Part shown: in pieces, positions 33,052-56,328 of the stretch | Layout: every line of letters starts with the position of its first letter | Position numbering within the stretch: the first letter of the stretch is position 1 | Assembly: GCA_006226495.1 (NCBI GenBank) | Contig: SBGU01000056.1 | Span: forward strand, 1-64,000 | DNA length: 64,000 nt | From: Alphaproteobacteria bacterium | GTDB lineage: Bacteria > Pseudomonadota > Alphaproteobacteria > Sphingomonadales > Kordiimonadaceae | Direction of reading: 5' to 3' | Program-made: the position numbers and the translations under genes | Notes under the pieces: model-generated | Seen by the model: the letters and a program-made list of their open reading frames with translations, nothing else | Databases searched by the model: none | Told to the model about the DNA's origin: nothing

Positions 33052-33059
33052 GGTGCGCC

Positions 33060-33529: not shown

Positions 33530-33612
33530 ATACACTTTATTATTGCACTCGCGCGCGCCATGGCCTTAGCATCCGGCCCAGGGACACGTTGGGGGACACT
33601 TGGAGGCTAAGC

Positions 33613-33960: not shown

Positions 33961-34052
33961 TCCTTTTTCAAAGCTGAAACATTCTACTGGCAACCGGCCA
34001 CCGCATATGCTGCGGATGGCCACTTGCCAGAAACACCAGCATGGAAGCCGTC

Positions 34053-34442: not shown

Positions 34443-34466
34443 GCCCCGCAGACACCCGGAGGAACC

Positions 34467-35395: not shown

Positions 35396-35408
35396 CCTGG
35401 CCTCCTTC

Positions 35409-36367: not shown

Positions 36368-36368
36368 C

Positions 36369-36644: not shown

Positions 36645-36671
36645 GGATTATCCTTTCGGGGTTGGGGGCCG

Positions 36672-37342: not shown

Positions 37343-37377
37343 CGCAGGGTCTCCAAAGGTCAAAGGCGAGGGAACGA

Positions 37378-38916: not shown

Positions 38917-38950
38917 GCTGGTCGTGTCCTTGTCATATCTGGAAAGGGAC

Positions 38951-38975
38951 AGGGCGGGATATGGCATCCCGCCCT
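38951..38975 (-). terminator. Strong hairpin downstream of the capsid gene
   Basis: Perfect 10-bp stem AGGGCGGGAT/ATCCCGCCCT with a 5-base loop, 31 bp after the capsid stop. Read leftward it is followed by GTCCCTTTCC, a weak T-tract. It probably acts as a partial terminator or mRNA 3'-end stabiliser that raises capsid mRNA over later genes. Confidence 0.65.
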
Positions 38976-39006
38976 GACGGTGTCTTCCGTGGTGTCACAC
39001 CCGGCC

Positions 39007-40648: not shown

Positions 40649-41572
40649 TCAGGTGACCGAAAAATCGTAGGAGGTGCTGCCGCGCAATGCCTCGATCTCG
40701 ACCTGCAGGCTTTTGGTGATCGACCCGTGCCGCCCACCAAGCATCATTTCGGCCACGCCGGCGTCCTCGTCCCGAACCTGCAGGCGTTCACTGAGGTGCC
40801 CCTTGCGGCCCGCATCGCCGTACAGCAGGGCGGAGCGGGCAATCGGGCCGTTTTCGCCCCAGAAATGATATTCAATCCGGGCATTGAAATCGACATCGGG
40901 ATCGCGCGGCCGGATCGAGACGGTGATCCACGCCTTGCTGATGCTGTAAAACATGCTGTAGCGGGTTTTCCGCCCTTCGTAGGCATCCATTACCTTGCTG
41001 TTCTTGCGTTCAAAGCCGGTCAGCCTTGCCCGGCGCGTCTGCAGGTGCTGCACCAGGGAAGCGATATCATCGCCGCCCGGCGCGCGGCCCGCCGTCATGC
41101 CGGCGCTTTTTACGGCAGAGACACGGGCCAGGTCGTTCGCCGGGAAGGTGACGAGGGAGATTTCCATCAGGTCGGCGCGGGTGATGGTGCGCACGCCACT
41201 GGCGGCGTCGCGCGCGGCGTCGCGTGCCACAAAGCCGATGGACAGGCCGTCAAGCGCGCCCATTTTCAGAAGCGCATAGGCTTCGAGCCCCCGGCCGGTC
41301 ATCGACAGGCGGCCTTCCACATACAGGCCGTGCTCGTCCTCGCGCACCAGGTCGAACCGGCCGATGGGTTCCTTGGCGTCATGTTGCCACAACAGAACAG
41401 GCATGCGGGCCTTCAGGCTTTCGGTGAAGGCGCCGCGCGCGACAATGTCGCCGTCCCGGTCCAGGTTGCCGAAAATGGCGCCATAACCTGAAAAGCTTCC
41501 GGGCGCGGCCCCGGTTTTTACTTCGAGCGGCAGTTCGAGGATCTGGCGGTCCAGGGTAGTTGTGGGGGGCAT
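40649..41572 (-). CDS. HK97-type prohead protease with a C-terminal extension
   Basis: 307 residues. The N-terminal about 165 residues are the U35 prohead protease: LPLEVKTGAAPGSFSGYG start, catalytic His in LLWQHDAKEPIGR and catalytic Ser in LDGLSIGF, then MEISLVTFPAND. The normal end is a helix at about 185 (QHLQTRRARLTGFERK). Here another 115 residues follow (from about VMDAYEGRK), beta-rich, with aromatic segments such as YHFWGENGPIARSALLYGD, not part of the protease fold I know. Start ATG at 41572 with AAAGG upstream. Confidence 0.85.
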   Translation of the reverse strand: MPPTTTLDRQILELPLEVKTGAAPGSFSGYGAIFGNLDRDGDIVARGAFTESLKARMPVLLWQHDAKEPIGRFDLVREDEHGLYVEGRLSMTGRGLEAYALLKMGALDGLSIGFVARDAARDAASGVRTITRADLMEISLVTFPANDLARVSAVKSAGMTAGRAPGGDDIASLVQHLQTRRARLTGFERKNSKVMDAYEGRKTRYSMFYSISKAWITVSIRPRDPDVDFNARIEYHFWGENGPIARSALLYGDAGRKGHLSERLQVRDEDAGVAEMMLGGRHGSITKSLQVEIEALRGSTSYDFSVT

Positions 41573-41607
41573 GCTCTGGCGACCTTTCTGTGAATATTGT
41601 GCGATAT

Positions 41608-41717
41608 CCTGCCCGCTGGCAGGCTCAGGGCGAACAGTGTTGATGGCGCGAACGAGGCGAAAACACCCGCCCGCGCCCGCTGTTCTGTCCCGTTCGGGCT
41701 GAGCTTGTCGAAGCCCA
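41608..41717. repeat. Diverged pair of palindromic repeat arms between protease and portal genes
   Basis: The arm at 41689-41715 (CGTTCGGGCTGAGCTTGTCG core) is the same sequence as the arms at 44.6-45.7 kb; the inverted partner at about 41611-41636 (GCAGGCTCAGGGCGAACAG core) is diverged. A single unit of the REP-like family described below, inserted in the only non-overlapping gap of the head genes. Confidence 0.8.
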
Positions 41718-41766
41718 AGCCGTGGGGCGCCCTGCCTCTCGCAGGGCCAAACGTGCCGGGACGGTG

Positions 41767-42933
41767 TCAGTCTGTGCCTTCGCGACCGCCCTTGCTCCAG
41801 CCCAGCGCATCGCGCTTTTCATCGCGGCTGAGGAAGTCGGCGCTGTTGATGCGGTTGAATTTTTCGGCACGCTTGGCCTCGAGCGCCGGTATGTCGTCGA
41901 GATCGGGCACCAGCTTCAGGCCGCCGCCGAAGCGGGGGCCAAGCCAGTGGCTGAGTTCATTGAGGATATCGAGCACCAGGGGGATGACCGTGTCTTCCCA
42001 CAGGCTTTGCCGCGCTTCGGCATAGTTGGCATAGGTCTGGGCGTCGGGCACACCCAGCATCTGGGGCGGCACACCAAAGGCCTGCGCGATTTCGCGGGCC
42101 GACATATTCTTGGCCGAAGCCCAGTCCATATCCTTGGGCGACAGGCCCATGCCTTCCCACTTCAGCCCGCCTTCCAAAAGGAGGGGCCGGCCTGCATTCA
42201 CGGGACCCGTGTGCCGGTCTTCGACCTGCGCCTTCAGGTGGCGGAACTGTTCGTCGGTCAGGCCGCTGTCCGCCCCGTCCTGATACAGCACCCCTGACGG
42301 CGTGCCGCCATTCTGGATCAGCGCCAGGTTCCAGCGGCTGCCATCGTTATGCGCATCCACCGCCATGGCCGCGGCTTCAAGGGGCGCCAGGCCATACCAG
42401 TCTGACAGCGGGTTGAAACTTTTGAGATGCAGCACATCGGCGGCACCAAAACGCTGGCAGATGCCGCCCACCCGCTGTTCAAACCCTGCGGGCAGGCCGT
42501 CCCGGCCTTCAAGCACCGCCATGGTGTCGGGCCTCAGGAGCCACAGTTCCCTGGGCGGCCTGCCGTCCGGCCCCACTGCCAGCGCATAGGCATTGCCCGC
42601 AATCAGATAATAGCCCGCCAGATTATAGAGGAAATTTTCACCCCTGAGGCGCGGGTTCGGGCGGCGGATAAGAGCCAGGAGCGGATGGTCCACCAGTTCC
42701 TCGTCGCCCCGGAAACACAGGACCGGCACACTGGCCACCGCGCGGGCCACCAGGTTGACGGCCCGGAAGGCCACCACATTCTGGCGGTAACCTTCGTCGG
42801 CCAGCCGGTCGTATCGGCGCGGGGTGCCAATGGCCTGCCCCGGCCCGACCCGGGTGAACAAGGGGCGTGCCCCGCTTGCCGGTTCGGCGGCCTTGGTGTC
42901 GGTACGGCCAAACAGCCGGTCGATCATGCGCAT
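41767..42933 (-). CDS. Phage portal protein, HK97 family
   Basis: 388 residues, normal for the family. N-terminal MIDRLFGR, then FRAVNLVARAVASVPV, HPLLALIRRPNP, NFLYNLAGYYLIAGNAYAL, LKSFNPLSDWYGLAPLEAA, and FGVPPQMLGVPDAQTYANY. Forms the dodecameric DNA gate at one capsid vertex. It is 3 bp after the terminase stop, with GGGAGC before the ATG. Confidence 0.92.
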   Translation of the reverse strand: MRMIDRLFGRTDTKAAEPASGARPLFTRVGPGQAIGTPRRYDRLADEGYRQNVVAFRAVNLVARAVASVPVLCFRGDEELVDHPLLALIRRPNPRLRGENFLYNLAGYYLIAGNAYALAVGPDGRPPRELWLLRPDTMAVLEGRDGLPAGFEQRVGGICQRFGAADVLHLKSFNPLSDWYGLAPLEAAAMAVDAHNDGSRWNLALIQNGGTPSGVLYQDGADSGLTDEQFRHLKAQVEDRHTGPVNAGRPLLLEGGLKWEGMGLSPKDMDWASAKNMSAREIAQAFGVPPQMLGVPDAQTYANYAEARQSLWEDTVIPLVLDILNELSHWLGPRFGGGLKLVPDLDDIPALEAKRAEKFNRINSADFLSRDEKRDALGWSKGGREGTD

Positions 42934-42936
42934 GGG

Positions 42937-44235
42937 TCAAAGCTCCCTGATATTCGGGGTGAATTTCGGTTTCAGCATCAGTTCGGTGATGGCCCAGACA
43001 AGGGCGTCCACCCGGTCGGGGCTGGCGCCTGACAGACCTTCCGGCGTGAAGGCGCACATCTGGTCCTCAAGCGCCGGGAAGGCGCCCGCATGGTGCACCC
43101 GGCCCTGTTCATAAAGCGCGGCCACCGGTTCGGCACGCACGACCTTGCCCCGTGTGGCATGCACGGCGCGCACGGGCACGCCCGGGTCGACCTGCGCGAT
43201 CAGGGCCGCAACCATGGCGCCGCCCTGGTTCGTTTCGGCAACGATACGATCGGCCTTCAGCCGGTGATACAGGGCCACGGCCCGGGCGGCCCACCCGTGC
43301 GGCGACAGGCCGCGGCTGGTGTCGTCGGCCAGCACATAGGCATGGCCGTCGGCGCCTAGGCCCGCGGCCACAAGGCCACATTCGTCGGCCTTTTCACCGG
43401 AACTGGCGGGCGGGTCCACCGCCACCACAAGGCGGCAGAGCGCGGGGGCCGCGTCCGCGCGGCAGGCTTCAAGGCCGGCGCGGGACCACAGGGCCCCGGG
43501 CACATCTTCCAGAATTTCGGCCAGCAGTTCCTGCCGGCCAAGGCGCGTGCCTTCATAGCGGCGCACAATGTCGCGCGCGAAGGCCGGCGCCAGGTTGTCG
43601 AGGTTATCAAACGTGCTGCCGCGCGTGACATGCACATGCGCATCGGCAATCAACCGCTTCAGCACCGGCACCGGCTTTGGTGTGGTGGTGACCACGGTGC
43701 GCGGGCTTTCCCCAAGGCGCAGGCCGAACATCAGCATGTCCCACGCGGCTTCGCCCATGCGCCAGGCGCACAGTTCGTCGGCCCAGGCGGCATCATGCTG
43801 CGGCCCGCGCAGGCGTTCGGGTTCTTCGGCGCTATAGAGCGTGGCCACGGCGCCGTTCGGCCAGGTCAGCAGGCGTTTGGACGGTTCGAAGCGCGGGCGT
43901 GCCCACGGCGGGCATATGGCCAGAAGGCCGCTTTCGCCTTCCACCATCACCGCCCGGGCGTCGTTCATGGTGGGGGCAACAAGCGCGATATGCCGGGCCT
44001 TGCCGCCCTCGACCAGCGCTCGCACCCATTCGGCGCCCGTGCGGGTTTTGCCGAACCCGCGCCCGGCCAATATCAGCCAGTGCCGCCAGCCGCCTTTGGG
44101 TGCCACCTGGTTCGGCCGCGCCCAGAAGGGCCAGTCGAACTTCAGGGCCGCCGCTTCAGTCGGTGTCAGCGACGACAGGAAGCGCTGGCGCTGTTCCTTC
44201 GTCAGCGACCGCACGGAATTTGCGCAGAAGGTCAT
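42937..44235 (-). CDS. Phage terminase large subunit
   Basis: DNA-packaging ATPase/nuclease, 432 residues from the ATG at 44235 (GAAGAGG seven bases upstream), overlapping the small-subunit gene by 80 bp. Walker A LAGRGFGKTRTGAEW (about residue 57), Walker B AAWADELCAW, coupling motif VVTTTPKP. Nuclease acidic residues in VVAVDPPAS, IVAETNQGG and DRVDALVWA. The region LTPTEAAALKFDWPFWARPNQ before Walker A is typical of GTA-type large terminases and supports the start before the overlap. Confidence 0.92.
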   Translation of the reverse strand: MTFCANSVRSLTKEQRQRFLSSLTPTEAAALKFDWPFWARPNQVAPKGGWRHWLILAGRGFGKTRTGAEWVRALVEGGKARHIALVAPTMNDARAVMVEGESGLLAICPPWARPRFEPSKRLLTWPNGAVATLYSAEEPERLRGPQHDAAWADELCAWRMGEAAWDMLMFGLRLGESPRTVVTTTPKPVPVLKRLIADAHVHVTRGSTFDNLDNLAPAFARDIVRRYEGTRLGRQELLAEILEDVPGALWSRAGLEACRADAAPALCRLVVAVDPPASSGEKADECGLVAAGLGADGHAYVLADDTSRGLSPHGWAARAVALYHRLKADRIVAETNQGGAMVAALIAQVDPGVPVRAVHATRGKVVRAEPVAALYEQGRVHHAGAFPALEDQMCAFTPEGLSGASPDRVDALVWAITELMLKPKFTPNIREL

Positions 44236-44620
44236 GCTTTGCCTCTTCAAGCTCGGTTTCGCAAATGGCGGCTGGCGCATCCTTGCCGCCGCCATATTTT
44301 TCAGGCTTCCGCGCCTTCAGAAGCTGCATCAGCATCGTGTCGGAAAATTCGCGCACATGGCCCACCACCTCGCCGCCCCGGAACACCGGTTTTTCGGTGC
44401 CCTTGACCGCGCGGCGCAGGGCTTCGTCCTCCAGCGCGTCGGCGCCCATGGCCCAGGCGGCATCCCATTCGCGCGCGAACACGATGCTCTGGTGGCGCCA
44501 GCGGTAGGGTGTGGCCCGGTCGATGCCCGCGGCTTCGGCGGCACCGCCCACCGAATAGCCAGCCGCCAACGCCTCCAGAAACGCGCGCTGCACCGCGCTC
44601 GGGTGAAATCGCCGTGGCAT
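44156..44620 (-). CDS. Phage terminase small subunit-like, HTH
   Basis: 154 residues from the ATG at 44620 with AAGGA six bases upstream (an ATG at 44641 also exists). An N-terminal helix-turn-helix (FLEALAAGYSVGGAAEAAGIDRATPYRW) is followed by LKARKPEKYG, a motif of small terminases and related DNA-binding packaging proteins. First gene of the leftward structural operon. Confidence 0.78.
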   Translation of the reverse strand: MPRRFHPSAVQRAFLEALAAGYSVGGAAEAAGIDRATPYRWRHQSIVFAREWDAAWAMGADALEDEALRRAVKGTEKPVFRGGEVVGHVREFSDTMLMQLLKARKPEKYGGGKDAPAAICETELEEAKHDLLRKFRAVADEGTAPALPVVADTD

Positions 44621-44663
44621 GGGTTTTCCTTTTGTTTTCATCTAAAATCGCCCCCTGCATCCT

Positions 44664-45732: not shown

Positions 45733-45866
45733 GGGAGCAAGGGGCTCGCTGGTCGTCGCTGCACCGGATTTTTGCGGGATTTGAGGTCGCGCCGTGCCGT
45801 GGGCGCAAGAGGTCATTTCATCTGTCCTTATGGTGCACCAAAGGCGGTTCGGGTGCAAGTTATTTT

Positions 45867-45881
45867 TTACGTTTTTCGTAA
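45867..45881. promoter_or_regulatory. Palindromic operator candidate TTACG-TTTTT-CGTAA
   Basis: 15-bp perfect palindromic arms, 87 bp before the GT61 start. Identical to the site at 55605-55619 and the same arms as the two sites in front of the S24-type repressor gene. AT-rich surroundings in otherwise G+C-rich DNA. Confidence 0.7.
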
Positions 45882-45967
45882 TTTTTGTCTGTGCCAGCTT
45901 TTTTGGGTGTGCGGTCATGTGTGCCCTTGCCGCCTGCAGGCGAAACCCGATAGATAGGGGGCAGGCA

Positions 45968-47173
45968 ATGTCGCCCGCACATCCAGGCCCAGGTGGAATG
46001 ACCGAACTTTCCTTCAGCGTTGATTATGCACCGGACCTGGCCGACTTCGCAGCGGTCCTGGACCGCGAGGGCATGCAGTTCACGCCCTACAGCGCCTTCT
46101 ATGAGGTGGAGACCACACCCGAGGACCGTTTCAACCCGAAACTGGCCGTCGGCGGGCACGACGTCACCACCAACTGGCTGAAACGGTATTTCAAATACCA
46201 GTCGCGCGGTACCAACCGGCTGGGTGTGCTGTCCTGCGCCAATATGCGGGTCACAGAAGAATGGGGCCTTGCGGTGGCACCCAGCGGGCTTGCGGTCACC
46301 GGCATGCATGGTTTCGGCTGGAATTTCCGGCATTTTGGCGTGCTGGCCGGCTCAAGTGCCACCACCACCAAGGACCAGGCCAGTTTCAGCCTGCCGGTGC
46401 GCGACCGCAAGACCGTGGCGCTGGAAGGCACCGCCGCCATGCTGTCCTTCCCCGGGGCGCTGACATACGGCCACTGGATCGTGGATGTGGCCGGGCGCAT
46501 GGAAATCCTGAACGCACTTGTGGACATGAACCTGATCGAGCATTTCCTGCTGCCGCGTGTGGCGTCCTGGATGCGGCCGTTCCTGGTGGCTTATGGCATC
46601 CGGCCCGACCGCATTGTCGAACTGGACGCCGGCACGATATACGAGGTGCCCAAACTGCTGGTGCCGACCACCCTGTCGCACCAGCCGGGCGGCACCCTGC
46701 CGATCCGCCTGGCGCGCGTGGTGTTCCGGCGTCTGGCGGCCATCAACCGCCAGTGGGGCAAGACCACAGGGCGCAAAAAGCGGGCTGAAACACCGCTCGT
46801 TTTCCTGGCCCACACGCGCCAGACATCGGGCGCGGGACGCGAAATTGCCAACCTTGACCAGCTTCTGGCGCTGGTGAAGGAAAAAAAAGGCAAGGTGGTC
46901 GACCCCCTCCAGATGTCCCTTGCGGACCTTGCGGCAGAGCTTTCGGGGGCCCGCCTGGTGGTGGCGCAGGATTCGTCCGTTCTGCACAATATCATCTTCG
47001 CGCCGGCTGATATCTTGCTCATTGAAACCGAACGGCGGCACAATCTGCTGCACCCGTCGATCCAGGAGGCCATCGGTCGCAGGCTGGCCTACTTCCCGTG
47101 CGGCAAATCCGACCAGGGCTGGCACCTGGACCTGCCCAGGTTCCAGCCGCTCCTGGAACGCCTTTTAAAGTGA
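45968..47173 (+). CDS. Glycosyltransferase family 61 (DUF563) protein
   Basis: 401 residues from the ATG at 45968 (AGGGGGCAGG upstream); the longer upstream frame has no homologous look. GT61/DUF563 pattern: N-terminal variable part, then SFPGALTYGHWIVDVAGRMEIL, TLSHQPGG, VFLAHTRQT, VVAQDSSVLHNIIFAP and LIETERRHN near the end. It transfers an unknown sugar and is cytosolic by the absence of a signal. It is outside the capsule locus and has the TTACG-N5-CGTAA operator about 90 bp upstream, so it may be controlled by the phage-type repressor, for example to alter surface glycans. Confidence 0.78.
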   Translation: MSPAHPGPGGMTELSFSVDYAPDLADFAAVLDREGMQFTPYSAFYEVETTPEDRFNPKLAVGGHDVTTNWLKRYFKYQSRGTNRLGVLSCANMRVTEEWGLAVAPSGLAVTGMHGFGWNFRHFGVLAGSSATTTKDQASFSLPVRDRKTVALEGTAAMLSFPGALTYGHWIVDVAGRMEILNALVDMNLIEHFLLPRVASWMRPFLVAYGIRPDRIVELDAGTIYEVPKLLVPTTLSHQPGGTLPIRLARVVFRRLAAINRQWGKTTGRKKRAETPLVFLAHTRQTSGAGREIANLDQLLALVKEKKGKVVDPLQMSLADLAAELSGARLVVAQDSSVLHNIIFAPADILLIETERRHNLLHPSIQEAIGRRLAYFPCGKSDQGWHLDLPRFQPLLERLLK

Positions 47174-47230
47174 CAGCCCCAACTTTGTAGCCCATAGTCG
47201 TGCCAGAACAACCGTGGGGAGTTGTATCCG

Positions 47231-48064
47231 ATGATAGCGAAATCCTGGTCTGCGGCCGGCCTTTTGCTGGCGGCAGTATGCGCCGGTGCCGCGAACGCAA
47301 ACGATTGCGCCTTTGACGGGCTGGACATGCCCGCCTTCACCGAAGCACCCGGGTTCGACAAGCCCTTCATCTTCGTGGGCGAAATGCATGGCACGACCGA
47401 AACACCCACCTTCACCGCAGCGCTGGCGTGCCAACTGGCGGCTGAGGGCCTGAGCGTGCTGGTGGCCCTTGAACAGCCGCAGAATGTGCAACTGCCCATG
47501 CGCCAGGACGACGGCCATTATGCCTTCGCGCTGGATGACGACGGCCTTTCGGAACGCTACTGGTTCCGCAAAAAACCGGACGGCCGCACCAGCGCCGCCA
47601 TGCTGGCGATGATCGACCGGCTGCAGGAACTGGCGGCGGACGACAATGCCCGCATCGACATACAGGGTGTGGACATACCCTGGGAGGACGATGAAATGAC
47701 CATCGACCGCGATGGCCATATGGCAGAAAACATCCAGGCGCTGTGGTCCACCGACCGGTACGACCGGGTGGTGGTGCTGGCCGGCAATTACCATACCCGC
47801 CTGCCGGGCGACAAGGTCATGGACACCATTGTCGCGGGGGTCGATCATGACCAGGACGACAGCTACAGCGTCGCTGTCCGGTCACCCAGGGGGCAGATCT
47901 GGGCCTGCATGGGCGCCACCTGCGGCGAACAGGACATGGGTGGCGGCAAGGGCCCCGACAGGCCAATCCTGCAAACCGTTGCAGACGAATACCGGGCGGC
48001 CACGCCCTACAGCGCCGTGCTGTGGTTGCCGCATTTCACGGCATCACCCCCGGCGCTGCCCTGA
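47231..48064 (+). CDS. Secreted TIKI/ChaN-superfamily protein
   Basis: 277 residues from the ATG at 47231 (GGGGAG nine bases upstream). Signal peptide with ...AGAANA cleavage. The first motif FIFVGEMHGTTETP (Glu and His) and the later LAGNYHTRLPGD (His) match the GxxH ... H layout of the EreA/ChaN/TIKI hydrolase-like superfamily. The two Cys near the C-terminus (WACMGATCGEQ) may pair. Substrate unknown: haem-binding, peptidase or esterase roles occur in relatives. Confidence 0.65.
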   Translation: MIAKSWSAAGLLLAAVCAGAANANDCAFDGLDMPAFTEAPGFDKPFIFVGEMHGTTETPTFTAALACQLAAEGLSVLVALEQPQNVQLPMRQDDGHYAFALDDDGLSERYWFRKKPDGRTSAAMLAMIDRLQELAADDNARIDIQGVDIPWEDDEMTIDRDGHMAENIQALWSTDRYDRVVVLAGNYHTRLPGDKVMDTIVAGVDHDQDDSYSVAVRSPRGQIWACMGATCGEQDMGGGKGPDRPILQTVADEYRAATPYSAVLWLPHFTASPPALP

Positions 48065-48085
48065 AGGCCGGGGCACGCCGGCGGC

Positions 48086-48658
48086 TTATTCAGCGACCAC
48101 TCCTTCAGGCAGGGCAGGAAGCGGCGGCACACCGAACCCGAGATCAAAATAGCCGACCTCCTGGATATGGCCGGGTTTCCAGACCGCCCGTTCGCGGCTG
48201 TTGACCAGTTCCATGCTTTTTTCGCGGTTGGCGGTGGTCTGGCCCATGCCCAGCACATATTTCGGGTTGCCGTACCGGTCCGCAAGCGGCAGTGCCACTG
48301 TTTCCAGATTATACACCAACCCGTCGGCAAACGTGACCAGGCGCACCAGCCTGCCACCACAGGGCTGGTTGAAATAACCATCGATGAAATCGGCGAAAAA
48401 ATCGCGCTCGCTGTCCGGATAGATATCGAACAGGTTCACGCCGGTCAGGCTCTGGCCGGCGGCGCCGCCCACATCGCTGCCGGCAAGCCGGGTGATCAGC
48501 ACATGGCGCGACCGGCGTTCACCAATGAAGATAATCGGCAGAAGCCGCGCCACCCGGGCCGGGTTGAAGCTGCGTTTCAGGGGGATATGCGCCGGCCCCT
48601 TTGGCAGGGAATGCCAGTGTTCCAGCAGTTGTTCGAGGGGCCTGTCAAGTGCACGCAT
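48086..48658 (-). CDS. PAS_5-type sensory domain protein, paralogue 1
   Basis: 190 residues, a single PAS-like domain with no output domain (PF07310-like). The family layout is visible: N-terminal helix LLEHWHSLP, RSFNPARVARLLPIIFIGERR, RLAGSDVGGAAGQSLTGVN, NQPCGGRLVRLVTFADG, then LPLADRYGNPKYVLGMG and the end motif YFDLGFGVPPLP. The start at 48658 has GGAAGG nine bases upstream. It is the leftmost and most diverged of six tandem copies, separated from copy 2 by a rightward small gene. Confidence 0.75.
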   Translation of the reverse strand: MRALDRPLEQLLEHWHSLPKGPAHIPLKRSFNPARVARLLPIIFIGERRSRHVLITRLAGSDVGGAAGQSLTGVNLFDIYPDSERDFFADFIDGYFNQPCGGRLVRLVTFADGLVYNLETVALPLADRYGNPKYVLGMGQTTANREKSMELVNSRERAVWKPGHIQEVGYFDLGFGVPPLPALPEGVVAE

Positions 48659-48818
48659 GGCCATGTGCCTTCCGCCCCGGCCCCCACCGCGCGCATAAGC
48701 AAAAGCCATTATAGCCTGAAGCCGCCGTTCATCCCAGATAAATGCGAGATGTGCGAAGGTCTTTTCTCGTCTCGAAAATCCGGGTATAACATCCCCCGGG
48801 AGAAGGGGAGACTGTGTT

Positions 48819-48938
48819 ATGCGTCATCATACCTGCACAAATGCCCGCCCGGGCCATGGCATTGTTGCCCTTATGGGGCTGTTCGTGTTTTTTGCCATTA
48901 TCGGTTACGCGCTGTATTACAGCCTGGCCGCGGCCTGA
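48819..48938 (+). CDS. Small single-pass membrane protein
   Basis: 39 residues, ATG at 48819 with AAGGGGAG eight bases upstream. Polar N-terminus with HH and one Cys, then one transmembrane helix (IVALMGLFVFFAIIGYALYY). Unknown; lies in the gap between PAS_5 copies 1 and 2 on the opposite strand. Confidence 0.55.
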   Translation: MRHHTCTNARPGHGIVALMGLFVFFAIIGYALYYSLAAA

Positions 48939-49018
48939 CGGCGGCGACAACCGAATGAAGCCTGACCGCCGGAGCCTGCGCCCCGGCAGCCTTTGCCGAA
49001 CATGAAACAGGGTTGCGT

Positions 49019-49585
49019 TCAGGCCGAAGCGCGCTGAAGCCGCGCTTTCACCGCGTCTGCTGCGGGCACGCCGAAGCCAAGGTCGATCAGGTCGATATCC
49101 CGAACCGTGAACATCTTCACCTTGCTGTCGCCGCCGATATCCTGCGTGTGCGACGACCGGCGCATGGCCATCAGGCCCAGGATATATTTCACGTCACCGT
49201 CGTCCGACGCCAGCGGCAGGTTCAGGCTGTGCATGTCAAACTGGCGGCCATTGTTGAAGGTCACTTCCCGGTGCAGCCGGGCGCCGCAGGGCTGGCCGCA
49301 CAGCGCGCTGGTGACATCGGCGAAAAAGCCCCACTGGCTCTGGTCATACAGGTCAAGATAGTTCAGCCCCGTGATGCTGCGGCCCATCACCGCCTCGATC
49401 GCGGTGCCGGCAATGCGCACATGCAGGTCCATTTCCTGCCGCTGTTCAACAATGAACACATAGGGCAGAAGCCGCGCCACGCGCATGGGGTTGAATCGTC
49501 GCCGGCGGGGGACCTGGCCACCCTCTTCCTGTTGCAGGGCCCGCCAGTAGGCCAGCATTTCGTCGAATTGTTGCTGCTGCAACAT
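49019..49585 (-). CDS. PAS_5-type sensory domain protein, paralogue 2
   Basis: 188 residues from the ATG at 49585 with GGAG upstream. Motifs of the family: FDEMLAYWRALQQ, RRFNPMRVARLLPYVFIVE, HVRIAGTAIEAVMGRSITGLNYLDLY, GQPCGARLHREVTFNNG, LPLASDDGDVKYILGLMA, DLIDLGFGVPAAD. No additional domain, no membrane segment. A PAS-only protein likely senses a ligand or works by binding a partner. Confidence 0.8.
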   Translation of the reverse strand: MLQQQQFDEMLAYWRALQQEEGGQVPRRRRFNPMRVARLLPYVFIVEQRQEMDLHVRIAGTAIEAVMGRSITGLNYLDLYDQSQWGFFADVTSALCGQPCGARLHREVTFNNGRQFDMHSLNLPLASDDGDVKYILGLMAMRRSSHTQDIGGDSKVKMFTVRDIDLIDLGFGVPAADAVKARLQRASA

Positions 49586-49666
49586 GGGGTACTCCGATAC
49601 TCTTAACAAAACTCTCAATAGGCGCTTTGTACCGGAAACCCATGAAGGGTGCCTTAACAAGTAGGG

Positions 49667-50221
49667 TTAATTTTCAATTGGGGACGCCGCACCCCGCACC
49701 AGGGCCGGCCTGGTTTCAGGTACCCCGAAACCCAGGTCCAGCCAGGACAGGCGGATATCGGCCATGTCCACCTCGTCCGGCGGGCCGTAAACCGGCTGCA
49801 CATTGGCGATACCGACACTGAAGCGCACCTGCCCGTCGCTGTCGGCCAGCGGCAGGCCCAGTGCCCGCACCCGGTACAGCGGATCGGACAGGATCTGCAT
49901 ATGCCGGTCCAGAACCACACCACAGGGGGTGTTCGCCAGCCCCTCGAACATGTCGGCATGCAGGTCCCATTCCGATTTGTCGTGCCGGTCCAGTATGTTG
50001 GTATTGGTTGCCGGCTGGCTGGTGGCGCCGTCCAGCGCCGTGCCGGTCAGGCGCGCGACCAGTTGGTAGCGGCTTTTGCGTTCGATAATATAGATGAAGG
50101 GCAACAGGCGCGGCACCGCCATGGGATTGAACTGCTGGCGGGCCGGAACCGGCCTGCCCGACGCGGCCTGGAGCTGCCGCCAATAAGTGAGAAGCTGGTT
50201 GAAAAAATCGTCGCGTGGCAC
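49667..50221 (-). CDS. PAS_5-type sensory domain protein, paralogue 3
   Basis: 184 residues, start GTG at 50221 with GGGGGAA upstream. Same layout as its neighbours: LLTYWRQLQAASG, QQFNPMAVPRLLPFIYIIE, ARLTGTALDGATSQPATNTNILD, NTPCGVVLDRH, LPLADSDGQVRFSVGI and DLGFGVPETRP. The GxNYLD segment is altered (NTNILD), suggesting a changed pocket. Confidence 0.78.
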   Translation of the reverse strand: MPRDDFFNQLLTYWRQLQAASGRPVPARQQFNPMAVPRLLPFIYIIERKSRYQLVARLTGTALDGATSQPATNTNILDRHDKSEWDLHADMFEGLANTPCGVVLDRHMQILSDPLYRVRALGLPLADSDGQVRFSVGIANVQPVYGPPDEVDMADIRLSWLDLGFGVPETRPALVRGAASPIEN

Positions 50222-50387
50222 AGATTCCCCCGGTCCGGTCCGGCGGTACCCTGGTCCGCCATAGTATGGTTAACATAACATTAACTATACGCCCGTCTGT
50301 ACCTGACAAAGATGAATCCAGCCTGAACGGCGATATTTTTTGCAACCCTGGCCCGAACACATCGGGCGGCGTGTCGGCCCGGTGGCA

Positions 50388-50915
50388 TCAGGGCGCGGGC
50401 ACGCCGTATCCGAGGTCCAGGAAATTCATGCCATAGGTCTGGGAGCTTGCGTTGCCTGACGGCGCCTTGCGCGGATCGCCCTGGCGTACCCGCGGGTGGA
50501 TAAGCCCGATGATATATCGGACCTCGCCCGCCTCGGTCGCCAGCGGCAGGGCCAGCGACAGCGCGCGGTAACCATGGCCTGATGTGGTGGTGACCATGCG
50601 GTCCATCCAGCCGCCGCAGGGCTGGCCAACGACGGCACCAAAATAGCGGTCATACGCCGGCCATTCATTTTCGGGATAGTAGGACAGGTAATTCTGACCG
50701 GTCAGCGGGCGGGTCGCAAGCGCATCGAGCGCCGTGCCCACAAGCCGCACATGCAGGTCAAACCGGTCCCGGCGTTCCAGAAGGAAGATGCTGGGCAGCA
50801 GCCAGGGCACATCCATGGGGTTGAACCGGCGCCGGCTGGGCACCGTGCCGCATTCGCTTTTCAGATGTTGCCAGTAATCGACAAGGTCGGTGAAATCCTG
50901 GTCCGTGTGCAGCAT
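50388..50915 (-). CDS. PAS_5-type sensory domain protein, paralogue 4
   Basis: 175 residues from the ATG at 50915 (GGAGACGG upstream). DLVDYWQHLKSECG, RRFNPMDVPWLLPSIFLLE, VRLVGTALDALATRPLTGQNYLSYY, GQPCGGWMDRMVT, LPLATEAGEVRYIIGLIHP and the end DLGYGVPAP. Single PAS-like domain. Confidence 0.8.
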   Translation of the reverse strand: MLHTDQDFTDLVDYWQHLKSECGTVPSRRRFNPMDVPWLLPSIFLLERRDRFDLHVRLVGTALDALATRPLTGQNYLSYYPENEWPAYDRYFGAVVGQPCGGWMDRMVTTTSGHGYRALSLALPLATEAGEVRYIIGLIHPRVRQGDPRKAPSGNASSQTYGMNFLDLGYGVPAP

Positions 50916-51002
50916 GGGCCGTCTCCAGATGCCGGGAACACAGTATGCCGCATGTATCCTAACATCTGGTGAACTTCCGCCCGCGATACGGGCATGCCAT
51001 GC

Positions 51003-51572
51003 CTAACCCGCCGTATCGGGGCGCCATGCGTCGTTCGGCGGCACACCAAAGCCGATGTCGATATAGCTGACATCGCGAATTTCCGAGCGGATATACAGGG
51101 CGGGCGCCTGTATGCCGGCCAGGAAGTCCGACCGGATGCTCATGAGCCCGATGATATATTTGACCTCGCCGTCCCGGGCTGAAAGCGGCAGGCCGATCTG
51201 GCGCATATTGTGTGTTTTGCCGTCCTGGAAGGTGGCGCGCCGCACCAGCCGCCCGCCGCAGGGCCGACCGCAGATTTCTTTCGCCAGCCCCAGGAAAAAC
51301 GCACGGTCGCCCGGTTCGCAGAAATCGAGATAGTTTTCCCCGGTCATGGCCCGCCCCATGGCGCCGTCAAGCGCCGTACCCGACAGGCGCACATGCAGAT
51401 TGTCCGGTGCCCTGAGTTCGAGCATATAGACAAACGGCAGCATCAGCCGCACCTGCATGGGGTTGAAGGCCACGCGCGACGGCACCAGCGCATCCGGCGC
51501 CTGCAGGCTGCGCCAGTAGGCCAGGAACGACTCGAACTCGTCGGCTCGCGGTATGGGTGTGGTATCCATCAT
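51003..51572 (-). CDS. PAS_5-type sensory domain protein, paralogue 5
   Basis: 189 residues. FLAYWRSLQAPDA, VAFNPMQVRLMLPFVYMLE, VRLSGTALDGAMGRAMTGENYLDF, GRPCGGRLVRRATFQDG, LPLSARDGEVKYIIGLMS and the end YIDIGFGVPPND. Closest in pattern to paralogue 2. Confidence 0.8.
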   Translation of the reverse strand: MMDTTPIPRADEFESFLAYWRSLQAPDALVPSRVAFNPMQVRLMLPFVYMLELRAPDNLHVRLSGTALDGAMGRAMTGENYLDFCEPGDRAFFLGLAKEICGRPCGGRLVRRATFQDGKTHNMRQIGLPLSARDGEVKYIIGLMSIRSDFLAGIQAPALYIRSEIRDVSYIDIGFGVPPNDAWRPDTAG

Positions 51573-51671
51573 CGGACCAGATTAAGGCGGATTTCGTTAA
51601 AAGGGAACAAACACCTGAGGTAGTACGCGCTTTCCGCGCCGCGGCCTGCGTCGCCGCAGAATGCGGGCCGC

Positions 51672-52229
51672 TCATATACCATCCAGCCCGGCAATCCTGA
51701 GCGGTGGCGGCGCGCCGTAACCGATGTCGAAAAAACTGATACCCAGGTTGTGAGACCGGGCCAGGGGCGCGGGGCGCATCTCACGCTGCCCCGCGTCGAT
51801 TTCCATACCGAACAGGCCAACAAGGTAACGGGGCGCACCGGCCCTGTCGGCCAGCGGCAGCACCAGGCTTTCGGTATGGAAACTTTCACCGGTTTCGATG
51901 ACCAGGTCGCGCTGTACGCGACAACCGCAGGGCACGGTGCAGGTGGTTTCGGTGCCGCGTCCGAAATCGGCCCATTCTTCTTCCGGATAAAAGGACAGGA
52001 AGTTGCGCCCGGTCATGGGGGTGACCATCACCCGGTCAAGCGCCGAGCCGGTGAACAGCACATGCAGGTCGGTCCAGCCCCTGACCTCGAACAGGAACAT
52101 CATGGGCATCAGGTGTGGCACCTGCGTGACGGAAAAAGCCGACCTTGCGGGCAAACCACCGTCGCCCGCGTCGTGCAATCGCCGCCAATAGGCAACCAGG
52201 TCTTTATAGTCCTTGTTGCTAACCAGCAT
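51672..52229 (-). CDS. PAS_5-type sensory domain protein, paralogue 6
   Basis: 185 residues from the ATG at 52229, with a run of G six bases upstream. DLVAYWRRLHDAGD, SAFSVTQVPHLMPMMFLFE (the FNPM motif is lost), FTGSALDRVMVTPMTGRNFLSFY, TVPCGCRVQRDLVI, LPLADRAGAPRYLVGLFG and the end FFDIGYGAPPP. First PAS gene after the phage-type genes DUF6362 and DUF1376 on the same strand. Confidence 0.78.
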   Translation of the reverse strand: MLVSNKDYKDLVAYWRRLHDAGDGGLPARSAFSVTQVPHLMPMMFLFEVRGWTDLHVLFTGSALDRVMVTPMTGRNFLSFYPEEEWADFGRGTETTCTVPCGCRVQRDLVIETGESFHTESLVLPLADRAGAPRYLVGLFGMEIDAGQREMRPAPLARSHNLGISFFDIGYGAPPPLRIAGLDGI

Positions 52230-52313
52230 TTTAACCCCCAATAGGCCCCTCCTTTATACAACAGCGTCCCCTTCTTGCCAACGCCGGGGGGCCTGGTTTG
52301 CAAAAGTTCGCGC

Positions 52314-52829
52314 TCAGGCCTGCAGGGCAACCAGCGCCGCCAGCCACTGAAGGCCGGCGTCGTAGCGCCTTTTGAGGGTCCAGCGAGACAGGCCAAGCCC
52401 CAGCGAGCGCCGCACCTTGGCCCAGGGTATGCGGGACTGGGCCTCGCCGTCCTGGTGCCAGGCCGCAAAAAACAGGATGCGGCGATCCAGCATGTCAGGC
52501 AGCAGCAGTAGAAGGTCCAGGGTCGGCTGCATCTGGTCGACCTCGTGGGCGCTGATACGCACCCGGCGCCGGGCTTGAAGGCTGGTCAGGCTTTCGCCGG
52601 CATAATCACCGCCTTCCGACCGGGTTTCCGGCCACAGGCAGCCGCGCATGCGCCGGAAGCCGGCTTCACGGTCCGGCAGGCGCCTGAGGGTCCATGTGGC
52701 GGACACCAGCCGCGTCTCGAGGGTATGCACCAACCGTTCCCTGAGCGGTGCCCCGGGGTCCGCCTGCACGTCGGCCAGCAGGCCGCGGGCCGTGGCCACA
52801 AGGGCCCTGTCGCTTTGTTTCGCTTTCAT
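52314..52829 (-). CDS. Phage-type DUF6362-like DNA-binding protein
   Basis: 171 residues. Layout of DUF6362-type proteins: a helical TLRRLPDREAGFRRMRGCLWPET segment, SAHEVDQMQPTLDLLLLL and a C-terminal RSLGLGLSRWTLKRRYDAGL resembling a helix-turn-helix. Such genes occur among early or regulatory genes of alphaproteobacterial prophages. It follows the DUF1376 gene on the same strand (41-bp gap). Exact role unknown. Confidence 0.6.
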   Translation of the reverse strand: MKAKQSDRALVATARGLLADVQADPGAPLRERLVHTLETRLVSATWTLRRLPDREAGFRRMRGCLWPETRSEGGDYAGESLTSLQARRRVRISAHEVDQMQPTLDLLLLLPDMLDRRILFFAAWHQDGEAQSRIPWAKVRRSLGLGLSRWTLKRRYDAGLQWLAALVALQA

Positions 52830-52870
52830 GGTCTGTCCTCTCGCTGTTGGTATTTTTTCCAGGTGTGGCC

Positions 52871-53845
52871 CTAGTCCCGGCGCCAGCGCCAGAGCGGGCC
52901 ATACCGCGCCCGGATTTCAGTCGGGATGTCCGGGTTCAGGGCTTCCCGGGGGTCGGGTCCCAACTCGGCCGGCAGGAAATGCGGATGCCCGGGCCCGATA
53001 TGCCAGTTGCGGGAGATATAATCCCCCCGGAAGCGGCTGTCGGCATCACCCAGGAACTGGCGCCAGTCGTCGGCGCTATCACGGTCAAACGCGCGCTTGG
53101 GCGGCGGGGCCGGGCGGCTGGCCGCGTGGGCCGCACCGGCCTTCAGGGCGCCAAGCCGCCTGTCCCGGGCTTCCAGCACCGCCTTCGAATAATAGTTCAG
53201 ATGGCCGGGCCGCTGGCCCGCGCGCGCCAGTTCCCGGCTGCCCAGCCGCACGAGCACAGGCAGGATATCGGCATCCAGGTCGGCACCGGCCTCAAGCCAG
53301 CCCGACACCGGGGATGTATCGCAACAATCCCCGTCAAGGCCGGCGGCGGCAGCAGCCGCCTGCACGGCACGAGCGACAGGGTCGACTTCTGCCACAGGCT
53401 TTGGTTCTGGTTTCTGGTTCTGGAGTCTGGTTGGCACATTTTCGCCAGCACCGTCGCCACCCCCACCGCCTGAAGCGGTCGCTGGCGCCGGTTGCCGTGC
53501 CGCCCGAAGGGCTGCGCGCACACGGCCACCCTTGGCGCCATTGGCCCGGTTTTTCGCCACCCGTTCCTGCACGCCTTCATAAACAGCCGTCAGTTTTTTC
53601 TGCCGCCACAAGCCACCATCGATATCGAAAAAATCTGCCAGCACGGGCCTGAGGCGGCGCCAGCGCACGGTGCCCACCCCGACAATGCGGGCCAAGGCGC
53701 GATTATCGTCCTTCAGGGCACAGCCCCGCGTGCGCCAGGCACACATCAGCAACAACAGGTACGCGCCATGTTCTTCCGTCGTCAGGTGCCGCGTGTCGGC
53801 CAGGTAGGCGTCGGTAAACAGGGGCAGCGCGGGAAATTCAGCCAT
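52871..53845 (-). CDS. DUF1376 phage replication-type protein
   Basis: 324 residues from the ATG at 53845 (AAAGGG upstream). N-terminal DUF1376 domain (about 1-90): FPALPLFTDAYLADTRHLTTEEHGAYLLLL, DNRALARIVGV, FFDIDGGLWRQKKL. A basic, Ala-rich linker with GGGGGD follows, then a C-terminal part seen in phage replication-initiation proteins (LNYYSKAVLEARD). It is divergent from the S24-type repressor; the shared 130-bp gap contains two TTACG-N5-CGTAA operators. Confidence 0.75.
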   Translation of the reverse strand: MAEFPALPLFTDAYLADTRHLTTEEHGAYLLLLMCAWRTRGCALKDDNRALARIVGVGTVRWRRLRPVLADFFDIDGGLWRQKKLTAVYEGVQERVAKNRANGAKGGRVRAALRAARQPAPATASGGGGGDGAGENVPTRLQNQKPEPKPVAEVDPVARAVQAAAAAAGLDGDCCDTSPVSGWLEAGADLDADILPVLVRLGSRELARAGQRPGHLNYYSKAVLEARDRRLGALKAGAAHAASRPAPPPKRAFDRDSADDWRQFLGDADSRFRGDYISRNWHIGPGHPHFLPAELGPDPREALNPDIPTEIRARYGPLWRWRRD

Positions 53846-53894
53846 CAGGGGGCCCTTTCGCGGGATTGGCATTGACTTCGAGACCCGATTATGA

Positions 53895-53909
53895 TTACGT
53901 TATTCGTAA
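53895..53909. promoter_or_regulatory. Operator candidate TTACG-TTATT-CGTAA (repressor gene, distal)
   Basis: Perfect 5-bp arms. Its centre is 33 bp (about three helix turns) from the next site; both lie between the divergent DUF1376 and S24-repressor genes, the normal place for an autoregulating phage-type repressor. Confidence 0.8.
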
Positions 53910-53927
53910 GTTATTGCAATCAGAAAA

Positions 53928-53942
53928 TTACGATTAACGTAA
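53928..53942. promoter_or_regulatory. Operator candidate TTACG-ATTAA-CGTAA (repressor gene, proximal)
   Basis: Perfect 5-bp arms, ending 36 bp before the ATG of the repressor gene. A half-site (CGTGA) follows at 53964-53968. Confidence 0.8.
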
Positions 53943-53977
53943 ATTGTTCTGATCGCCATTATTCGTGAGGGCGCAAG

Positions 53978-54685
53978 ATGCCGACACAGGACTGGATACG
54001 CACCGCACTGAAAGAACAGGGCCGCAAGCTGAAGGATGTGGCCGAAGCGCTGGATATCGCGCCGCCGCGGGTGAGCGATATCCTGAAAGGCACGCGCGAA
54101 GTGCAGGCCGACGAGGTGATGCCGCTGGCGAGCCTTCTGGGCCTGTCGCCCCAGTCGCTGCTCAAAAGCCTGGCGGTCGGTGAACGCAGCCTGGTGCCGG
54201 GTACCGAAGCCCGCAGCCTGAAGGTATTGGGCCAGTTGGCCGGCGACGGCAGCCTTTCGCCGCTGCCAGCAGACCTGGGTTTTGCCGACGTGGCCTGCCC
54301 GCCCGATGTGGCGCGCACCGACGGGCTTTATTGTTACATGCTGGCCGATGCTTCGATGGCGCGGGAAATCCGCCCGGGCAGCCTGATCATCGCGGCCGAC
54401 CCCAAGCGCCATTATGCGCCCATCGCGCCTGGCGCCATCCTTTTGCTGGACCTGCCATCAGGGGCCCGGCTGGTGCGCCAGTATGTGCGCACGGACGCGG
54501 GCGAAGACTGGCTGGTGCCGCTGCCGGACACACCGAACCCGGCCTATGCCAGCCTGCGCTTCAGCCTGCTGCCGGACGGCCTGGGCCCGGACCTGCCGCA
54601 AGGGGCGTTTGGCATCAAACATGTGGCTGGTGTGGTGATGTGGGTGCATACCCGCATGGGCGTTCGCCCTGCAAGCGGCGCCTAA
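53978..54685 (+). CDS. HTH-S24 phage-type repressor
   Basis: 235 residues, start ATG at 53978 with GAGGG upstream. N-terminal helix-turn-helix (KLKDVAEALDIAPPRVSDILKG, about 16-40 in two stretches) and a C-terminal LexA/CI-like S24 fold (about 115-230). The Ser nucleophile is present (ADASMAREIRPGSLI), but the place of the Lys base (usually VKR) reads ARLVRQYVR, with Arg. It may therefore not cleave itself as LexA/CI does. It probably binds the TTACG-N5-CGTAA sites in front of itself, DUF1376, GT61 and the solute-binding gene. Confidence 0.82.
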   Translation: MPTQDWIRTALKEQGRKLKDVAEALDIAPPRVSDILKGTREVQADEVMPLASLLGLSPQSLLKSLAVGERSLVPGTEARSLKVLGQLAGDGSLSPLPADLGFADVACPPDVARTDGLYCYMLADASMAREIRPGSLIIAADPKRHYAPIAPGAILLLDLPSGARLVRQYVRTDAGEDWLVPLPDTPNPAYASLRFSLLPDGLGPDLPQGAFGIKHVAGVVMWVHTRMGVRPASGA

Positions 54686-55422
54686 CGCGCGACGGCACGG
54701 CCCTGGCTCGAGACACTGTTGATGCCATCGATAAAATGGCGGCTGCGGGCCGATGCATGGCACAGAACCCTGTTCACAAGCGTTACCAGCGGCGCACTGC
54801 CCAGCCGGACGGCATTATGGGGCGCTGCCACCAGCCCTTCTTCGACCGGCGGGCCCAGGGTCACGGCGTCGACGCGGCCACCATCCAGCATCGCCACCAG
54901 CGCCTGGTAGGTGGGCACAAACTGCCAGCGCACATGGCTGACATTGCCAAAATCGAAAAACCGCTCGGCCCCTTCAAGGGTGGCGGCAGTGCGCACATCA
55001 GCCAGTTCCTTGATACCGGCGTCCGCCCGCACATACAGCCAGTGTTCGCTTATTGTCACCGGAATGCTGATGATATCGTCGTCATGCACGGGTTTGGCGA
55101 TGGACATGATGCAACTGTCCGGGTCGCGGGTGTACCGCAGGAACGCCCGCCTGACCGGGGTGCGCACAACGGTGAAGGCCACACCGGTTTCCGACAGCAG
55201 CGCCAGCGCACGGGCCGCGCCTTCGGTGGGACGGCTGTTTTCGTCCGAATAATAGCCGATCGGCCAATAGATGCGGATCGGCTTTTCCTTGCCGCCGGTG
55301 CCCGCAGACGCACCGGGCGCGGGCAGGGCCACCGGTTCCGGCGTCATGGCAAAGGCTGGCACTTGCACCCCCAACAGGTACAGTAGCATGCTTTTAACCG
55401 CCAAATGACGTCCCAGTCCCAT
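54682..55422 (-). CDS. Secreted solute-binding protein (SBP family 3-like), copy 1
   Basis: 246 residues from the ATG at 55422 (GGGAGTGG upstream). Signal peptide MGLGRHLAVKSMLLYLLGV..AFA. The mature protein has SBP_bac_3-type segments (RIYWPIGYYSDENSRPTEG, TVVRTPVRRAFLRYTRDPD, ALVAMLDGGRVDAVTLGP). There is no transporter gene adjacent, so it could be an orphan or a sensor-type binding protein. Two TTACG-type sites lie 149-197 bp upstream. Its end overlaps the repressor end by 4 bp. Confidence 0.7.
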   Translation of the reverse strand: MGLGRHLAVKSMLLYLLGVQVPAFAMTPEPVALPAPGASAGTGGKEKPIRIYWPIGYYSDENSRPTEGAARALALLSETGVAFTVVRTPVRRAFLRYTRDPDSCIMSIAKPVHDDDIISIPVTISEHWLYVRADAGIKELADVRTAATLEGAERFFDFGNVSHVRWQFVPTYQALVAMLDGGRVDAVTLGPPVEEGLVAAPHNAVRLGSAPLVTLVNRVLCHASARSRHFIDGINSVSSQGRAVAR

Positions 55423-55570
55423 CCGGTCCACTCCCAATCGCACCGATATTGGCACGGTCGGATGGATAATCGGTTAATGAAAGTGGCACAAACACGAATT
55501 CTGCGCCGCAGCCCTGCGCCTGGTGCAACCCATGGACATTCGGACACAACCGGGTACCGCAACACCCATT

Positions 55571-55585
55571 TTACGATTTCCGATA
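55571..55585. promoter_or_regulatory. Degenerate operator candidate TTACG-ATTTC-CGATA
   Basis: One arm perfect, the other changed (CGATA). It lies 34 bp centre-to-centre from the perfect site at 55605, the same spacing as in front of the repressor gene. Confidence 0.55.
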
Positions 55586-55604
55586 TTTTTCGCTTGCCTT
55601 TAAT

Positions 55605-55619
55605 TTACGTTTTTCGTAA
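55605..55619. promoter_or_regulatory. Operator candidate TTACG-TTTTT-CGTAA
   Basis: Identical to the site at 45867. Upstream of the leftward solute-binding gene and at the left edge of the structured, gene-free region to the right. Confidence 0.75.
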
Positions 55620-55699
55620 CTTTATCTCACCGGCCACGACGGCGGCGGGGACATGGTGCCAATGCAGCGGCCTGGAAAGGCGCCGGCAAAGGCGAAGCC

Positions 55700-56328
55700 C
55701 CCGGCCGATCGGTCCCGATGCGGCATCCAGGCGCCCCCTCCTCCCCCCAAGGGTGCCGCATCGGGGTCCGGGCCGCGGCGGCGGGCATGGCCGAATGGCC
55801 GGCCCGCAACCGCCCTGCCCCGCACCGTGGCGGCACCCCTTCCTGATGTTCCCCGCGCGCACAAGCCGGGGGCGGGGTGAACCGGCCCGGCTGCCTGCCC
55901 TTTCCCCGGGGGCGGGCAGCCACGGACCGGAACCGCACAAAACATTGAAATACATGACTTTTTTCACCACCCCATGACTGCCCGCCACGCCCGTGCCGGA
56001 TTCATGGTGAATAAAGTGTAAAAAAATCGCCCCTGCATTCTCAAATCCCGAAAGCCCGTCGTCTCAGTATCAGACACTTGGTCGATGGAAGAGTTTCCTC
56101 TTGCCGTGCCAATGGCACCAAAGGTTGTGACCCGGTTCTGCTGTCGTTGTCCCCCCAGGGCGGCCGGCAGACCGGGCACTCCCCGGAGGTTCGCCACACG
56201 GCACTGACCAGTGGCCGGGGTACCTTTTCCCAACCGTTCTGGGTACCCCGGCCCTTTCCTATTCCAACCTCGCGACTAGTCCTCCCGAGGCTATGCCGGC
56301 GCCGCAGCAATGGGGCGCCGGCTTTCTT
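55700..56328 (+). ncRNA. Candidate structured RNA region ending in a terminator
   Basis: About 630 bp without a convincing gene but with a run of strong stem-loops: 12-bp arms CCCGATGCGGCA/TGCCGCATCGGG (55714-55725 and 55754-55765), 12-bp arms at 55889-55900 and 55910-55921 with one G-U if read rightward, small hairpins in 56060-56215 (GTGCC-AAT-GGCAC; AAGAG-TTTC-CTCTT), 12-bp arms GGCCGGGGTACC/GGTACCCCGGCC (56213-56224 and 56242-56253) and a final terminator. The G-U pair and the T-run after the last stem both point to rightward transcription. The extent and start are not defined; a proline/arginine-rich 75-codon frame at 55653 was considered and judged weak. Confidence 0.4.
56295..56328 (+). 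terminator. Rho-independent terminator, rightward
   Basis: Perfect 9-bp stem GCCGGCGCC/GGCGCCGGC with a 10-base loop, followed by TTTCTTGT. No rightward gene ends here, so it should terminate a non-coding transcript. Confidence 0.75.

Follow-up and report, generated by a model that had tools for sequence, protein, structure and literature searches.

A conserved palindrome is the putative operator of a CI-type repressor in an inherited phage-derived gene cluster of the Kordiimonadaceae

We analyzed a stretch of 64,000 nucleotides from the genome of a marine Kordiimonas relative in the Kordiimonadaceae (contig SBGU01000056.1 of assembly GCA_006226495.1; the window). It holds a cluster of phage head and tail genes, a gene for a phage-type repressor at 53978 and several copies of the palindrome TTACG-N5-CGTAA (Table 1). 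The four perfect copies at 45867, 53895, 53928 and 55605, the degenerate copy at 55571 with 2 mismatches and the spacings of 33 and 34 bp between paired sites are all as originally predicted. The assembly (4,320,207 bases in 60 contigs) has five perfect copies, four of them within this 10 kb. At up to one mismatch, the 64-kb window has the four perfect sites and no further one; 100 shuffles of the window gave a mean of 0.61 matches, and four were reached in 1 of 100. The palindromes are real and clustered in this 10 kb. The fifth perfect copy (C1:27860) is inside an open reading frame (ORF) of 406 amino acids (aa) and was rejected as a regulatory target. With one mismatch allowed, the genome has 21 such places (5 perfect and 16 imperfect) and therefore not the hundreds of copies that the original prediction had named as evidence against itself.

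Table 1. Features of the repressor locus and the structural cluster, in window coordinates.
Feature	Position	Strand	Basis or remark
Structural cluster	24010..44641	-	family matches; gene order conserved in relatives; a few inserted + strand ORFs
terS, first structural-cluster gene	44156..44641	-	PHROG terminase small subunit, E 4e-30
Late box TTGCACC-N14-TGCACCATA, reads towards terS	45829..45858	-	conserved box
Predicted operator of late (structural) promoter, directly upstream of late box	45867..45881		perfect palindrome
Early gene 2, DUF6362-like	52314..52829	-	29.3 bits, below Pfam cut-off of 31; adjoins terS in compact relatives
Early gene 1, DUF1376 (PHROG primosomal-protein families)	52871..53872	-	beside repressor in most genus relatives
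Predicted operator, early/repressor control region	53895..53909		perfect palindrome, conserved
Predicted operator, early/repressor control region	53928..53942		perfect palindrome, conserved
Repressor gene, XRE/lambda-CI-like; N-terminal helix-turn-helix (HTH) and S24-like C-terminal domain without catalytic lysine	53978..54685	+	HTH_3 match, orthologs, predicted fold
Degenerate upstream predicted operator, third unit	55571..55585		2 mismatches
Sigma70-like promoter, third unit; -35 TTGCCT, 17 bp, -10 TAACTT	55594..55622	+	conserved geometry
Predicted operator within 17-bp spacer of third promoter	55605..55619		perfect palindrome
Covarying RNA hairpin, motif CGCGC-NNN-AGC, third-unit leader	55850..55876	+	covariation across genomes

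The 5-bp core of the palindrome is all A/T in the five perfect sites of the genome and includes G or C in each of the 16 imperfect ones (list read by eye). Across the family, 99 sites at up to one mismatch have a core that is 95% A+T, with A/T-rich flanks. Among the matches listed for the relatives, 38 of the 44 perfect sites with an all-A/T core are in the phage-derived element (counted by eye; two of the four sites in genome G006 are probably one region on two overlapping contigs, and C127:79 was assigned to the element only through the early genes on its contig). A wider regulon was rejected: in relatives, six loci whose perfect sites lie beyond the element were inspected, and no common neighbor gene was seen.

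The repressor gene lies beside the two central sites. Its HTH domain matches HTH_3 (PF01381) with 34.8 bits against a cut-off of 23. Orthologs are present in 24 of the 28 other family genomes (none in G001, G003, G025 and G026); the protein of Kordiimonas marina is 73% identical to that of the window. Seven weak matches (E 4e-7 to 6e-4) were found among 69 genomes of the wider order. An AlphaFold2 model has the HTH and a beta-rich C-terminal domain (predicted local distance difference test score 89), and its top Foldseek matches are the repressors of lambda and phage 186 (E 4e-6 to 2e-4). The global template-modeling (TM) scores of 0.3-0.4 perhaps reflect a different placement of the two domains; the lambda C-terminal domain alone gives a TM score of 0.66 by target. 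In a profile search with the HTH, the best PDB sequences were 3trb (E 4e-5) and then DdrO (E 7e-5), which was also among the first HTH folds found by Foldseek with the model.

The catalytic lysine of the S24 family is replaced by arginine in all 23 aligned orthologs (of 25), and the catalytic serine is kept in 19 of these 23, with T, C, V and V in the other four; both positions were assigned by alignment spacing. On that assignment, the Ser-Lys autopeptidase dyad is absent from all 23. Without that lysine in the S24-like domain, derepression probably takes a route other than RecA-stimulated self-cleavage. We regard TTACG-N5-CGTAA as the putative operator of this protein, through which it would repress.

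To compare the locus, we extracted as much as 20 kb surrounding the repressor from 24 relatives and mapped the genes and sites of the window in it; some of these loci stop short of terS and were lengthened afterwards. The order in relatives is a third unit downstream of the repressor, the repressor, the early genes, often PAS_5 genes, the late site, terS, terL and portal. Of 25 genomes, the window's own included, 22 have one or more sites with up to one mismatch in the 110 bp upstream of the repressor, against shuffle means of at most 0.02 per genome. At up to 2 mismatches, a site is directly upstream of the repressor in 24 of 25. The sites are approximately 80, 50 and 25 bp 5' of the repressor start, and most genomes have two or three. 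The DUF6362-like protein is conserved near terS, and 20 orthologs were aligned; DUF1376 was not found in the repressor loci of several other genera. The conservation of the sites in this divergent region supports the earlier proposal that the repressor would control itself and the early genes.

The site at 45867 had been assigned to a glycosyltransferase gene (GT61), with leftward transcription of terS as the alternative. It is the alternative that is strongly supported, since a conserved late box adjoins the site and reads towards terS. The layout in the genus is operator, short A/T-rich stretch, late box and terS. Operator and late box occur together in each of the 16 genomes of the genus that were inspected at this place (G000, G002-G005, G007, G008 and G010-G018), with a diverged box in G004 and G010. 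The operator is exactly TTACGAAAAACGTAA in 10 of the 16, perfect with another core in G008 and has one mismatch in five (G005, G013, G014, G015, G018). The late box is perfect in 17 of 29 family genomes, where it precedes terS or terL; the pattern was defined from 12 of these 17, and the other five are independent. Because the conserved pair precedes terS in relatives, we assign 45867 as the late operator of terS. The cluster behind it encodes TerS, TerL, portal, prohead protease, capsid, connectors, tail tube, an NlpC/P60 protein and a TipJ-like tail protein.

From the late site to the terS match is approximately 140-330 bp in relatives and 1226 bp in the window. The gap in the window is filled by three families of direct repeats, which also pair as inverted repeats, and a GIY-YIG ORF (44996-45298). 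The repeats (44651-45745) are 110-147 nt long (CCGTTCGGGCTGAGC...GTCGAAGCCC). Among the genomes compared, only the window has so wide a gap; the repeats themselves were not sought elsewhere. Genome G016 has two perfect late boxes. In G012 and G016, operator and late box are present twice, 1.4 kb apart (L061 14776/16171; L062 4144/5540), which may place another gene under late control.

A third set of sites lies downstream of the repressor. In 20 of 25 genomes, the 2 kb downstream contain a site with up to one mismatch (shuffle means at most 0.10 per genome), and such sites mostly form pairs or triples 31-35 bp apart. In 21 genomes (G023 with a 2-mismatch site), the 44 bp surrounding the last site were scanned for the best sigma70 match. 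For 20 of the 21, the operator falls within a promoter spacer of 17 bp, and for G022 within one of 18 bp; the -35 element begins 10 or 11 bp before the operator, and the promoter reads away from the repressor. The score is at least 8 of 12 consensus letters in 20 of the 21 genomes, the window having the weakest copy (7 of 12). Shuffles reach 8 of 12 in 33% of cases, and the constant geometry is therefore the stronger argument for this promoter.

Downstream of the third promoter there are few frames by a simple coding score. The leader motif CGCGC-N3-5-AGC was found in 18 of the 21 genomes. As these 18 were selected by the motif, its letters are constant by construction, and the outer stem was free to vary. 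That stem covaries: 93.7% of cells are paired over 8 pairs, 16 cells are double changes (shuffles give 3.9, and none of 500 reached 16), and the covariation score is 0.353 against 0.129 (0 of 500), with far lower values when the alignments were slid by 1-3 columns. A covariance model built from the 18 hairpins recovers all 18, one per genome, and gave four other matches at E 0.06-0.45; a convincing match thus occurs in 18 of 29 genomes, and 9 of the 29 had no match among 150 candidates scored per genome. The window has no Rfam gathering match. Ten loci, nine of which have the hairpin, gave a single Rfam match with E up to 1, a sub-threshold pRNA (E 0.83) inside the repressor gene. A small, fast-evolving protein is encoded 3' of the leader in 13 of the 21 genomes by a hidden Markov model (HMM) seeded from six, several of its starts being uncertain. 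Searches assigned it to no family and gave no clear match among known folds. The protein was not recognized in the third unit of the window. G002 may have a further copy, judged by eye and doubtful, and the contig of G009 ends too early to judge. At 56210-56255 of the window there is a strong GC-rich hairpin (-28.6 kcal/mol, z -4.65), which perhaps ends the third transcript.

We consider it highly probable that the 53978 repressor shuts three promoter regions of one vertically inherited, phage-derived element through TTACG-N5-CGTAA. This reading is built on features that are seen directly: the sites, their conservation, the promoter geometry, the covariation of the hairpin and the co-divergence of the genes. 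A non-self-cleaving CI-type repressor would hold the early, late and leader promoters off. Its first control region would comprise its own promoter and the divergent early promoter of the DUF1376 and DUF6362-like genes, the second the late promoter of the capsid-tail cluster, with the operator abutting the late box, and the third the promoter downstream of the repressor gene, from which a transcript with the conserved hairpin would be made. If the repressor were lost or antagonized, the early genes and the leader transcript would come on and the late box would fire. The activator of the late box may be the DUF6362-like protein, our first guess, or else the third-unit protein. The palindrome looks like the off-switch of a long-kept inherited phage cluster and not like a surface-sugar switch.

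Several observations weigh against this reading. G019 keeps a repressor ortholog and no sites were found there, and in G023 and G024 the upstream sites are reduced to ones with 2 mismatches. In four genomes of other genera (G020, G022, G023 and G027), the late box stays and the operator is gone. The leader motif is missing in G010, G022 and G023, the number of hairpin pairs changed on both sides (4) was matched by 51 of 500 shuffles, and the HMM did not recognize the small protein in G000, G004, G006, G007, G011 and G022. In addition to a full TerL, G008 has two pieces with 60-61% identity on other contigs (C31 and C183; L078), possibly from a second related phage or contamination. For G021-G028, the synonymous divergence (dS) of the element reaches as much as 2.5 times the recA value, and the trees of recA, a single host marker, and of the element genes agree only moderately.

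The main alternative is an ordinary inducible temperate prophage with a normal CI immunity region, its conservation being due to repeated infection by one phage group. A CI-like repressor, a replication-type DUF1376 gene and a full head-tail cluster would suit such a phage, TerL has relatives in phage records at up to 57% identity, and the extra pieces in G008 could come from one of its kin. However, 26 of the 29 family genomes have TerL (all but G002, G004 and G019), 24 of the 26 with a single match and G006 with two pieces on one contig, and the order of head and tail genes is kept wherever the loci reach. In six close pairs, the dS of terL, portal, capsid, repressor and the DUF6362-like gene is near that of recA, within approximately 2.5-fold, with dN/dS (omega) at 0.02-0.28; some genes were available only for some pairs, and one dS was saturated. 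Between the window and G011, a genome of the same genus, for example, dS is 0.69-1.01 for element genes and 0.84 for recA. Element and recA distances are correlated (Mantel r 0.45-0.56, permutation p 0.0002-0.0018). The repressor itself is almost absent from phage records, with one weak match, and a pattern-limited scan of 2.9 million viral contigs in IMG/VR found it in one contig, which is among the three that carry the DUF6362-like gene; in a further IMG/VR contig (L140), terS has the late box and operator. No tyrosine integrase is on the 211-kb contig C47, with four PF00589 matches elsewhere in the genome (serine integrases were not sought). G002 (L102) and G004 (L103) are without TerL genome-wide, yet they keep the repressor, its operators and the late operator; no other structural gene is in their 20-kb loci, except a piece of terS in G002. 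On this evidence, we judge the prophage explanation unlikely.

The original prediction had one phage repressor also steering the surface glycosyltransferase and an exported solute-binding protein. Its phage part agrees with the conserved sites; its surface-sugar and uptake part is not supported, the targets not being conserved. The GT61 start (45998) does have a site 117 bp upstream of it, and the supposed solute-binding gene (54682-55422) has sites approximately 150-180 bp before it. However, among the loci of the 24 relatives (some of which end before terS), a GT61 relative was found in 1, where it is 2.3 kb from the site; the solute-binding gene has relatives in 3 of 24, and both sites belong to conserved promoters that read the other way. 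We therefore rejected both genes as conserved targets, and such steering seems very improbable. The solute-binding label is that of the original prediction, and the gene has no Pfam or PHROG match. In G004, G010 and G011, a gene of this type lies between the repressor and the operators and starts near them, as in the window, so a secondary leftward effect on it is possible. Another host regulator might also bind the palindrome, with the repressor merely its neighbor. Binding by the 53978 protein is predicted from the sequence, which leaves room for this, but the near-constant placement of sites directly upstream of the repressor (24 of the 25 genomes that have it, as given above) and the lack of a common neighbor gene at the six outside sites make it a very remote prospect.

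The element looks vertically inherited and either like a gene transfer agent (GTA) or like a domesticated prophage. With the Rhodobacter capsulatus GTA (RcGTA) type it shares vertical inheritance, purifying selection, HK97-type head genes and a GTA-gp10-type protein (PF11836, 30.9 bits against a cut-off of 27.8). PF11836 is not exclusive to GTAs. RcGTA has a short tape measure, and the gene at the tape-measure position here (31467-32513, without a Pfam match and assigned by position only) encodes 348 aa, which suggests a short tail. Unlike RcGTA, none of the 29 family genomes has GTA_TIM (PF13547; the Caulobacter control was positive), and the tail end is of the DUF1833/NlpC/TipJ type.

RogA of Caulobacter crescentus is described as a repressor of gafYZ that has lost key cleavage residues (PMC9632790), and the GafYZ activators as switching on the GTA cluster (PMC11150451). 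By description, and not by sequence comparison, our repressor resembles RogA in having an HTH and a cleavage-dead S24-like domain, in size (213 aa for RogA, 235 aa here) and in belonging to a domesticated phage cluster of an alphaproteobacterium (PMC9632790). The two differ in target: RogA is reported to bind at the gafYZ activator promoter, where there are GGAA-N4-TTCC repeats, whereas TTACG-N5-CGTAA is the conserved site here and is also at the late promoter (PMC9632790). GGAA-N4-TTCC is not the conserved site here and was not itself searched for. Lambda CI and the 186 repressor share the overall predicted fold and the arrangement of two or three operators between divergent promoters; they differ in that the lysine is an arginine here and operators are also present at the late promoter and the third unit. 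DdrO of Deinococcus, as described in PMC8533742, binds a radiation/desiccation response motif (RDRM) that is a 17-bp palindrome; several of the DdrO sites contain a TTACG or CGTAA half-site. These half-sites and the HTH are alike (PMC8533742), whereas the palindrome here has 15 bp with a 5-bp core, and DdrO controls DNA repair genes. Overall, the palindrome leads to a three-promoter switch model for a phage cluster kept by most of the family. DdrO is, to our knowledge, without an S24 domain.

We tentatively suggest, as a possibility still short of a likelihood, that the element is an undescribed Kordiimonadaceae GTA lineage, domesticated independently of RcGTA, in which a non-self-cleaving CI-type repressor acts on early, late and RNA-leader promoters and the hairpin in the leader defines a new RNA family with a part in the induction switch. 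Literature searches for Kordiimonas, and for Kordiimonadales with gene transfer agent, gave no description of such an element. Should the cluster prove to make particles that contain host DNA, GTAs would have one more independent origin, here with a control circuit simpler and more direct than that of Caulobacter and with a conserved structured RNA.

Two further features of the locus concern inserted genes. Six PAS_5 genes are in a row at 48086-52241, between the early genes and GT61, with a seventh at 58496; relatives have PAS_5 genes in the same place, and their number varies. In G020 (L092) and G027 (L097), approximately 12 and 9.5 kb lie between the protease gene and the capsid gene; this place in the structural cluster may be a hot spot for insertions.

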